From Candidatus Altimarinus sp. (lineage in GTDB: Bacteria; Patescibacteriota; Gracilibacteria; BD1-5; UBA6164), in the NCBI GenBank assembly GCA_020724225.1, contig DYHI01000014.1, forward strand, positions 1 through 32,171: a stretch of DNA of 32,171 nt. Direction: 5' to 3'. How positions within the stretch are numbered: the first letter of the stretch is position 1; each line of letters begins with the position of its first letter. The position numbers and the translations under genes are program-made. The notes beneath the pieces are model-generated. The model saw only the letters and a list, made by a program, of their open reading frames with translations. It did no database searches and was not told where the DNA came from. Shown piece after piece: positions 2,218 through 6,152 of the stretch.

Positions 2218-2245
2218 TTGACTGGATAAAAAAAAAGGATAAAAT
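2218..2245 (+). promoter_or_regulatory. Sigma70-type promoter of the S-layer gene
   Basis: TTGACT at 2218-2223 and TAAAAT at 2240-2245 with a 16-bp spacer. The predicted start of transcription is near 2251, which gives a leader of about 290 nt before the ATG at 2544. The pilin gene at the other end of the window has the same -10 and spacer length. Confidence 0.7.
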
Positions 2246-2250
2246 CTGTG

Positions 2251-2543
2251 CACAATTATTTTTTGGTTCATTAACATCAACCGATGTAAACAAAAATAAA
2301 TTTGGTATATTTTGTAAACTCCCAAATTGTTATTTGTTGTTACGACTTTGGAATAGAGCGAAAAATATTTCTATCATTCTTATGAAGATAAGAAACTATT
2401 ATTTTATTTTTTCTTCTATCCCAAAGTCGTGCACAAAAGACTTTTGGGTTAAGGCTTTAACCTTTTTTCTAGCTTTTTAATAAAAAAGCTAAAATCACAA
2501 AGGGGTTTTTACCTCTATTTTATTTCTTAATAAGAATACTTTT
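2251..2543 (+). promoter_or_regulatory. Long structured 5' leader of the S-layer gene with mutually exclusive hairpins
   Basis: No ORF is convincing here. Arm 1 (2342-2357) pairs with arm 2 (2415-2430): 16 bp with one mismatch. Part of arm 2 (CCCAAAGTC, 2420-2428) can instead pair with GACTTTTGGG at 2439-2448. The end of that segment forms GGTTAA/TTAACC (2447-2452 and 2457-2462), followed by six T, a terminator-like hairpin. A further perfect 8-bp hairpin lies at 2471-2490. The arrangement resembles an attenuator or an mRNA-stabilising leader. Stretch 2091-2217, between the pilC terminator and the promoter, holds nothing I can recognise. Confidence 0.55.
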
Positions 2544-5500
2544 ATGAGTAACTTATTTAAAAAAGTTGTTGCTTCTGTTGCTACTGTATCAATCGTTTTA
2601 TCGATTGTTTCTCCTGCTTCAGGTGTAATGGCTGCATACTCTACATTAGAGGCTGCTAATAAATTAGCTTCTCTTGGAGTTATAGTTGATAATTCAGCTA
2701 ATCCTGCTAATTACAGATTAGGTGATTCTATAACGAGATGAGAAATGGCTAAAATTACTATGAAATTATCTGAAACTGAAGTTTCAGAAGTTTGTACTGG
2801 TAAATTCAGTGATTTATCTGCTTCAAATTGGGCATGTAAATATGCTGAAGCTGGTTTAGGTCTTGGTTTCTTTGCTGCTAATCCTACTTTCAGACCAAAT
2901 GATAGTGTTACTAAAATAGAAGCACTTAAAATGGTTATGCAAGCTAGAGGAATTGAAAAATCTTCAAATTCTGATTGGAAAGCTGCTTATGTTGAAGCTG
3001 CTGTTGAAGCTGGTGTATTAGAATCATCTTTTAGTGATTATGATACAGTTGCAGTAAGAGGATGGATTTTCCAAACTGCTGTTAATGCTATTGAAGGGTT
3101 ATCTGATGAAGGTGATGATCTACTTGGAGATCTTCTAGGTGGATTAGATGGAATGACTGATGATGAAGATGATATGACTGATGATACTACTACTGGAGAT
3201 GATACAGTTGTTTCTGGTGATGCAGTATTAGTTGCTTCTTTATCTCCTGAAACTCCTGCTTCTGCTACAGTACCTCAAAATATTTCTGGTTTACCAGTTG
3301 CTAAATTTGATTTAACTGCTGGAAGTGAAGATGTAACTGTTACATCTATAACTGTTGCTAGAAGAGGTTTATCTGATAGTGCTACTCTTACTGGTTTAGC
3401 TGCTTTTACTTCTGAAGGAAGAGCTTCTAAATCAAGAGATGATAGTTCAAATAACAATACAGAAGCTACTTTAACTCTTACTAATGGTTTAGTTGTTAAA
3501 GCTGGTGAGACTAAAACTCTTACTATAGTTGCTGATGTTGCTAATGTTTCTTGAGCTGAATTTGCTATAGAATTAAAAGAAATTATTGCTTCTTCTTCTG
3601 TAGAAACTCAAGGTTCATTAGTTGCTAACACTATGAAAGTAGGTTGAGTTGCTGCTGATATGTTAACTATTGCTCCAAACGGATCTGTTACAAATCCTAA
3701 ATTGGGGGATGAACAAGTTGATGTATTGAAATTTAAATTAACTTGAGACAATGATTCTGATATGTTAGTTAAAAGTCTTACTTTTAAAGCTGAAGGAACT
3801 AATGGTTCTAATGCTGATGATAACATGATGAATTTCAAACTATATAGAGGTTCAGATTTATTAGCTGAAACTACTTACATGAACGGAAGATATTTAACTT
3901 TCGATCTATGAAATGGTTATACAGTTAAAGAAAATAAAAATGAAACTTTTGTAGTTAAAGCTGATATCGTAGCTTGAGCTGGTGATAAAATCCAATGGAT
4001 AGTTGATAAAAAATTAGATATAACTGCTGTTGGTTTAAGATATGGATACGGAGCTAATGTAACTATTACTTGAAATGAATGAGCTACTTTTGGTGACGAA
4101 TTCACTATTCAAGCTGGTCAAATAACTCTTGTTGATATAGATGCTGATACTACTGATATCAGAGAAAATAAAAAAGATGTTGTATTATGAGCTATAAATG
4201 TAACTAATGTATCTGGAAAAAATTTAGAATTACAAAAATTTACTGTAAATCTAGTTTCTACTAGTACAGGTGTTGCTAATATATTAGAAAACTTAGAACT
4301 TTACAATGAATCAAATGGAGCTGTTTATGATTTAACATTAACAACTTCAGGATTAAATGGTACAGGTTCAGATACTGATCTAAATATATCTTTACCACAA
4401 GGTACAACTAAATTAGTAATCAGAGCTGATACTAAAAAACCAACTACTCCAGGTTTATTGGATGGATCTTCAGTTACTATATCTGTAGATGCTTCTTCTA
4501 GTGTATGATTCTATGTAGTTGAAACTAATGATGACAAAAGAGTTACTGATATAACTCCTTCTAGTTTAAGTTTCAAAAAACTTAATATGGTTGCTTCTAG
4601 TGCTACTTTCTCTTATACTCCACTTGCTAACTCTACAGTTGTAAGAGGGGCTAAAGATCAAGTAGTTTCACAATTTGAAATTGAAGCTGGTAAAACATCT
4701 TCAGTTGTTGTTGATGAAATAAAAGTTTATGTATCTACTCAATCATGAGCTGCTGACAATAAAATAGTTTCAAGAGTTGCTCTTTATAAAGGGTCAGTTT
4801 CTGAATCTAACTTATTGAAATCAGTTTCTACTCTTGCTTCAGGTGTTGCTACTCTAGATGGTTACAAAGTAACTGTTGCTAAAAACACTAAACAAACTTT
4901 CGTTGTAACTGTTAATGTAGTTGACGGAAGTGATGTTGAAGGAAAAACTATTACAGCTAGAGTTGATAATGATTCTAATTGATCAAATGGTCCTTCAACT
5001 ACTGCTATATCTGCTGAAGATGAAGATAGTGATGATGTAACTATATCCGTTGCTGATACTACTGCTAAAAATTTAGTAGTAACTGCTGCTTGATCAGTTA
5101 CTGTAACAAACGATGCTAATAATACTGATAATAAAGATGAAAAAACTGTATTAGCTGGTTCTTCAGTTGCTGTTTTCTCTGCTGATATACAAGCTAAAAA
5201 TGAAAAAGTTGATGCTGAAAGAGTTGAGTTTACATTGACTTGAGCTACATTTGCTAGCTTAAAAAATGCTATAACTACTGCTTCTCTATACTTAGGAGAT
5301 ACTCTTATAGCTACTAACTCAAATGCTGATATAACTGCAGCTACTGCTAGTGGAACAACTACTGTTGCTTTCAAAAACTTAACTTCTATGATAGTTCCTA
5401 CTACTTCTTCTGAAGTTAGATTGGTATTAAACACTGCTAATATAGGTTACGAAAAAGTAGGTGCTACAGTTAAAAATGTAACTGTAACAGATGTTGCTTT

Positions 5501-6047
5501 AAAAACTATGGATTGAGTTGATTCTGGTAAATCTATAGCTGACTACAATGTTGCTATAACTTCATCTAAACAATTTGCTATAGTTCCTGCTACTGTTACT
5601 GCTTCTGTAGTACAAACTATGTCTTCTAGTGATAGAAAAACTAAAGTTAAATTTACAGTTAACGATGGAAATAACTCTGCTTCAGGGTCTCAATCTGATG
5701 TATCTGTACAATTAACTAATTTAACTTTCACTGCTTGAGGAACATATTCAGGATCATATAGAATATATGTTGATGGACAATCTTCACAATCTGCTACTGC
5801 TCTTCTTTCTGGAGGTACATTAACATTTACAGGAGGACAATTAGCTTCTCTATATGGTGCTGCTACAACTACTTCTAGTGAAACTTATGTAATAGAAATG
5901 GTTGATGCATTAAGTGCTGGTAACAATGCTTCATTAACACTTATTAAACAAGGTGTTGAGTACAGTGCTGTTAATGTAGACAATGCTACTGGATTAACTA
6001 CTAATGCTACTTCTGAACTTGAATTAGGTTCTGCTGTTGGTAACTAG
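2544..6047 (+). CDS. Large SLH-domain surface (S-layer-like) protein
   Basis: 1,167 residues. The N-terminus has a Sec signal peptide: basic MSNLFKK, a hydrophobic core, and likely cleavage near VMAA (about residue 30). Three SLH-type repeats follow at about 32-75 (YRLGDSITRGEMAKI), 85-130 (FRPNDSVTKIEALKM) and 135-175, which in known proteins bind cell-wall polysaccharide. An Asp-rich linker lies at about 185-220. The remaining 940 residues are Thr/Val/Ala/Asp-rich with alternating beta-type patterns and no enzyme motif, as in S-layer or adhesin stalks. It has only two Cys and almost no Trp. By hand count 16 of 94 glycines use TGA and the rest are mostly GGT, unlike neighbouring genes, which suggests high expression. 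It has its own promoter, a long leader and a strong terminator. It could also be a giant adhesin; surface location is well supported. Confidence 0.85.
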
Positions 6048-6081: not shown

Positions 6082-6120
6082 AAAAAAATCCCCACTTCCG
6101 CAAGGAAGAGGGGATTTTTT
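6082..6120 (+). terminator. Terminator of the S-layer gene; first copy of a repeated cassette
   Basis: A-tract, CCCC-CTTCC stem, 4-nt loop GCAA, the complementary GGAAG-GGGG arm, then TTTTTT. This hairpin and the 15 nt after it (GTTGTCTTGATTTTT) recur almost exactly at 7287-7344. Confidence 0.9.
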
Positions 6121-6152
6121 GTTGTCTTGATTTTTAAGGGAAAGATATAATT

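Follow-up and report, generated by a model that had tools for sequence, protein, structure and literature searches.

BoxA is the site bound by NusB and S10 in rRNA operons, and the EAR, LoaP and put processive antitermination RNAs are structured RNAs situated close to the start of operons for surface components or polysaccharides. In other bacteria, abundant S-layer mRNAs have long and stable leaders. An rRNA-type boxA in the suhB mRNA leader represses suhB in a manner tied to Rho (2017, PMC5725501), and a passage of PMC7862264, citing Stringer et al., describes boxA upstream of CRISPR arrays as helping transcription of the long unit. Here we describe the leader of an S-layer gene in a Gracilibacteria-like genome in which TGA encodes glycine; comparison of related leaders suggests that the S-layer mRNA may be made, and probably trimmed, much like rRNA. 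The features of the locus, within a window of 32,171 nt (the whole stretch of DNA analysed), are as follows.

Upstream of the leader: T2SSE and T2SSF (pilC-like) genes.
2218–2245, forward strand: promoter, TTGACT and TAAAAT with a 16-nt spacer; transcription start expected at about 2252.
2266–2277, forward strand: boxA GTTCATTAACAT, with a trailing ...CCGA to 2284 that is common to rrn boxA; presumed NusB/S10 site.
2321–2338, forward strand: arm0, an imperfect complement of arm3 that closes an outer helix around the hairpin; present in the MFE fold.
2342–2351, forward strand: arm1 ACGACTTTGG, 5' strand of the basal ~10 bp, covarying with arm2.
2352–2419, forward strand: upper stem and apex, variable in sequence, with insertions in some species.
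2420–2430, forward strand: arm2 CCCAAAGTCGT, 3' strand of the hairpin, with arm3 as alternative partner.
2439–2448, forward strand: arm3 GACTTTTGGG, partner of arm2 in the alternative state and of arm0 in the rod.
2446–2462, forward strand: core GGGTTAAGGCTTTAACC, near-invariant, sharing two G with arm3.
2463–2468, forward strand: six T after the core, kept in this genus and unconserved in the family.
2470–2491, forward strand: A+T-rich hairpin AGCTTTTT/AAAAAGCT, in the same genus only.
2516–2543, forward strand: U-rich translation start region, conserved as (A/T)TTTTATTTnnTAACTnnTATA...ATG, without a Shine-Dalgarno sequence.
2544–6047, forward strand: S-layer protein gene, 1167 aa with an SLH domain, TGA read as Gly.
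6085–6121, forward strand: strong intrinsic terminator of the S-layer gene (-20.2 kcal/mol), used as an internal yardstick.

The promoter matches the consensus at 10 of 12 positions and is the best site of the region in a consensus scan; TTGAC/TATAAT-like boxes also stand ahead of boxA in the majority of related leaders. At -72 kcal/mol, the fold of the leader lies far below that of shuffled sequence (-42.9 ± 4.5; z = -6.5). An earlier note on this DNA had located the arms, the hairpin and the six T correctly and had overlooked the rRNA-type boxA at 2266–2277. All leaders that we extracted share one order, running from the promoter through a boxA-like sequence, arm1, a variable apex, arm2, arm3 and the core to the S-layer gene, with pilC upstream. 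A glycosyltransferase-like gene begins 24–30 nt past the core in several genera, with the S-layer gene 1.1 kb further on, and even there the leader keeps its place at the head of the operon; it therefore appears to act on the transcript rather than on the S-layer translation start. The U-rich (A/T)TTTTATTTnnTAACTnnTATA...ATG, again without a Shine-Dalgarno sequence, is also seen at related loci where the S-layer gene is second in its operon. The 16S 3' end reads GGATGGACTATCTCCTTA at L040–L046, where the usual form is GGATCACCTCCTT, which means an altered anti-Shine-Dalgarno region in this order. Two S-layer paralogs (G042:C56:10023-11603 and G042:C29) match at the coding start and apparently lack the leader core, and hence the leader seems tied to the copy beside pilC.

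When the leader was compared by BLAST with 48 genomes of the family, strong non-coding conservation was found over 2399–2492, with 26 bases identical across genera. The pattern GACTTTTGGGTTAAGGCTTTAACC, allowing up to three mismatches, gives one copy per genome wherever it is present, and the element is normally single-copy, lying between pilC and the S-layer gene with the glycosyltransferase gene sometimes interposed. A core-plus-arm pattern run over 84,980 species genomes found 36 loci; most lie in genomes titled Gracilibacteria, and a few in genomes titled Patescibacteria or simply bacterium. A covariance model also placed the element in another family of this order (f3), again before an S-layer gene and with the core as GGTTAAAGCTTTAACC or ...ACT, and found none outside families f1 and f3 among 242 genomes of the class and 380 of the phylum, these large searches being strict filters that weak members may escape. 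All of the evidence is comparative; expected counts were derived from shuffles, and relatedness was partly controlled by taking one leader per genus.

The earlier note had claimed that arm2 has two exclusive partners, arm1 or arm3, and had proposed a covariance analysis of related leaders as a check. That analysis bears the claim out, as compensatory changes occur in both helices, across about 20 genera. For arm1:arm2, 91.5% of cells are paired, two-sided changes are present in 14 of the 21 hairpin pairs, and the covariation score of 0.375 is twice that of shuffles (0.177; 0/500) and of slid controls. The stem, which runs on from arm1 to about 2367, measures at least 21 bp in every species (21–26 bp without apex insertions, up to 38 with; median 24.5). 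Repeat-like insertions sit in the hairpin apex of four leaders (L004, L011, L037 and L038) and leave the hairpin base unbroken.

Because a one-base bulge shifts the register of arm2:arm3 between genera, we avoided column-based pair counting for this helix and relied on duplex energies and explicit pairs. The duplex is possible in 48/48 leaders; cognate duplexes score -10.7 kcal/mol against -8.3 for partners from other genera, and cognate pairs won all 5000 genus-representative permutations (0/5000 as good). Compensatory swaps are found at seven arm2 positions (-2, -3, -5, -6, -7, -8 and -9). Two comparisons within a genus are instructive: between L001, L003 and L004 on one side and L005 on the other, the same base pair is altered in all three strands together, and between L141 and L142 two arm2:arm3 pairs change jointly (GTTAT/ATAAC to ATCAT/ATGAT) while arm1:arm2 gains a mismatch. 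The outer helix is weaker but supported, with 3 of 5000 genus permutations as good as the cognate arm0:arm3 duplexes. That an alternative pairing is conserved in these leaders thus appears close to certain.

The two states differ greatly in stability. Folds with arm1 masked are on average 24 kcal/mol less stable than the arm1:arm2 rod, whereas an RNA starting in arm2 adopts the arm2:arm3 hairpin in 33 of 34 species. With such a difference, the alternative state would need an active or irreversible step, and removal of arm1 by an irreversible event, for instance cleavage, is the natural trigger.

For boxA we extended the published consensus GYTCTTTAANA (Baniulyte et al., PMC5725501) by a T (GYTCTTTAANAT). 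At most one mismatch to this was found in 39 of the 48 leaders, against 0.9 expected from shuffles (44 times chance); ten leaders match exactly, the copy studied here has one mismatch, and a few (L019, L055, L135) have no recognisable boxA. A first, loose boxA pattern performed at the level of its control, and we turned to a strict one, TCHTTAAMATNNNCYGA, which gives 65 sites in the 48 genomes against 9 for the reversed control. These matches comprise many S-layer leaders, some rrn spacers and a few sites after the promoters of other genes; the single strict match in the genome studied here is the S-layer leader, its own rrn operon being missing from the assembly. The copy has A at position 5, where the gamma-proteobacterial consensus (GTTCATTAACA) has T, and related genera show this A in their rrn boxA too (the L043 spacer and the L044 leader). 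In relatives, rrn boxA reads TTCTTTAAAATAA in 16S leaders and TGTTCTTTAAAATAATCTGAA in 16S–23S spacers, including the trailing TCTGA. We consider it very probable that the element in the S-layer leader is a boxA. We also tried a presentation of boxA in the loop of a small hairpin (GGTT/AACC here); permutation gave no covariation, and the candidate was dropped. Further boxA sites lie 20–50 nt past strong promoters (L086, L103, L106, L110), and the genes behind them, judged by eye, include a phage-type terminase, a tetrahydrodipicolinate succinyltransferase-like enzyme and a PP2C-like phosphatase, which suggests that boxA may be used on several Gracilibacteria mRNAs.

The factors expected to act on such a leader are present in the order. 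NusB was found in 20 of 21 genomes (own copy E = 3e-14), with matches below the TIGR01951 curated cut-off, the f3 NusB passing that of Pfam, and RNase III scores above its cut-off in 20 of 21. Gene coordinates place nusB directly before the RNase III gene, within ~300 nt and on one strand, in 18 of 20 genomes (e.g. G000:C49:2894-4210), an adjacency which suggests a link in this clade between the recognition of boxA and processing by RNase III. The RNA-binding domain of Rho (PF07497) was found in none of the 21 genomes of the order, and TIGR00767 matches, Rho-like at first sight, were not accepted as Rho, the one examined, in the genome studied here, being an F1-type ATPase subunit.

We propose that 2252–2543 is an antitermination leader of the rRNA style: RNase III would cut its hairpin, and arm2 would then re-pair with arm3. 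RNA polymerase would start at the strong promoter and boxA would be shown ~15 nt from the start, so that NusB and S10 could bind it and the S-layer operon would be transcribed by an rRNA-type modified polymerase. Since no Rho was found, the gain would lie in speed, in resistance to intrinsic pausing and termination, and in ordered RNA folding and processing rather than in protection from Rho. The RNA would then fold into a long duplex made of the ~24-bp arm1:arm2 stem and the imperfect arm0:arm3 helix, and RNase III would cut it near the middle, as in rRNA leader-trailer helices. We infer this cleavage from stem length and from the analogy with rRNA: a duplex of about two turns or more is present in all members, and a stem that never falls below 21 bp while its apex varies would fit a two-turn RNase III substrate. 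The leftover arm1 strand of ~11 bp, covalently detached, could be displaced by arm3, and the mature mRNA would open with a short unpaired tail, followed by the arm2:arm3 hairpin and then the invariant core, a 5' end that may protect against 5' decay, bind a protein, or both. As a whole chain this reading is tentative, and we put its chances a little short of even.

A bolder formulation is a processing-triggered strand-exchange switch: an mRNA under rRNA-type boxA control, in bacteria that yielded no Rho, would be cut by RNase III, and a purpose-built arm3 would recapture arm2 into the mature 5' end. We regard it as possible and hold it with more doubt than belief. Such a switch would be a leader class absent from the literature and the Rfam collection that we searched, and limited to one Gracilibacteria order: no paper that we found links boxA and antitermination with S-layer genes, and no Rfam family corresponds to this leader.

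The weakest point of the rRNA-style reading is the role of the core. It forms the hairpin GGTTAARGCTTTAACY, in which GGTTAA (2447–2452) and TTAACC (2457–2462) enclose GGCT, and competes with arm2 for two arm3 bases. It is identical in 34 of the 48 leaders; variants are confined to the first G, R7, A14 and the last C, the hairpin is possible in all of them, and the internal or 3' variants (R7, G14, Y16) retain it in RNA through G-U pairs. A stabilising hairpin alone leaves this near-invariance unaccounted for, whereas a site for a protein would be expected to be near-invariant. The core also contains CTTTAAC, similar to the middle of boxA, with the complementary GGTTAA just ahead of it, and a nut-like role is therefore conceivable. 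On such an account, boxA and a second signal formed by the arms and core, to which a protein or RNA polymerase binds, would together serve processive antitermination without any cleavage, and the competing pairings could hide or show the boxA-like sequence. The position of boxA, fixed in most leaders, and the persistence of the leader at the operon head agree with it. Yet the core has G before CTTTAA where a true boxA has T or C, and is thus not a boxA by consensus; an invariant core offers no covariation; and a nut-like site by itself leaves the stem of at least 21 bp and the double match of arm2 unexplained. We consider this account unlikely, though the most serious rival to the rRNA-style leader.

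The earlier note had read the same competition as exclusive terminator and antiterminator states. In a full attenuator of this kind, arm1:arm2 would permit termination at the core hairpin and its T-run, arm2:arm3 would be the antiterminator, and a ligand, a protein or a boxA complex would choose between them. The geometry of 1:2, 2:3 and 3:4 pairings matches an attenuator exactly, and all three are possible in nearly every leader; a T-tract (at least 6 T in 8) follows the core in 24 of 48 leaders, and the six T are common to the closest relatives. As a conserved function these states do not hold up. The core hairpin is worth only -3.5 kcal/mol alone (16 nt) and -5.2 with its surrounding sequence, whereas three real terminators of the same window reach -19.4 to -22.5 kcal/mol; the T-tract is missing from half of the leaders, including whole genera and most of f3; and the hairpin sequence is nearly invariant, unlike those of terminators. 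The default fold would be the OFF state for an abundant protein, and nothing obvious frees arm2 from the far more stable stem. We found no conserved leader peptide in the 48 leaders, where starts of any kind preceded by a Shine-Dalgarno sequence occur in 19, scattered and without a common length. A signal-sensing element, also suggested earlier, gains no support from a scan of 4227 Rfam families, in which the leader matched far below gathering thresholds and no riboswitch was among its matches, tRNAs being the only families found in the window. Attenuation is, in our judgement, improbable.

The simpler alternative of the earlier note, a stabilising 5' UTR, survives in part. Protection of the mRNA from decay by a structured 5' end is close to what the rRNA-style reading would entail, the rod fold is very stable, and long stable leaders of this kind are known from abundant S-layer mRNAs elsewhere. 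It is the static form that fails, in which the hairpins guard the mRNA and neither boxA nor the alternative pairing has a function of its own: such a leader has no need for arm3 to track arm2 at seven positions over 48 leaders, for an invariant core, or for a boxA so far above chance, and we think it a poor candidate. Least probable is a DNA operator (a repressor or activator site) with RNA structure secondary, for although the core is an almost perfect 16-bp palindrome that hardly varies within the order, it lies ~200 bp inside the transcript, always abuts arm3 and shares its GG, and the variants G7, G14 and T16 keep the RNA hairpin via G-U pairs while breaking the DNA symmetry.

If the rRNA-style reading is true, these bacteria, in which no Rho was found, would give a clear example of the tag for rRNA transcription on a protein-coding gene, and boxA function would be separable from protection against Rho. 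The leader provides a new, sequence-searchable RNA family for Patescibacteria, a group with hardly any work on gene regulation, together with a strong native promoter-leader module for a surface-layer gene of uncultured cells; its three-strand design would also offer a direct test of processing-driven RNA refolding.

Comparison with described systems sets the leader apart from each of them in some respect. The EAR, LoaP and put RNAs share with it a structured form and a place near an operon head, but it matches no Rfam family above noise. With trp-type attenuators it shares the order of mutually exclusive pairings (1:2, 2:3, 3:4), but it lacks their leader peptide and conserved terminator, and its arm1:arm2 helix is too stable for equilibrium switching. 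CRISPR-array boxA, as the passage cited above presents it, is likewise a use of boxA outside rrn, with a non-coding target and no structured switch. The suhB leader also carries an rRNA-type boxA in an mRNA, whereas here no Rho was found, the gene encodes a surface layer and the leader is structured. Closest is the rRNA operon leader (PMC10250234, PMC4807359), from which the S-layer leader differs in standing on a protein-coding mRNA, in a helix that is local rather than bracketing rRNA, and in possessing arm3 and the invariant core, neither of which occurs in the seven rrn leaders and 16S–23S spacers compared; the two share the succession of promoter, boxA and long RNase III-type helix, and the identical boxA sequence is found in an rrn spacer of the same clade.
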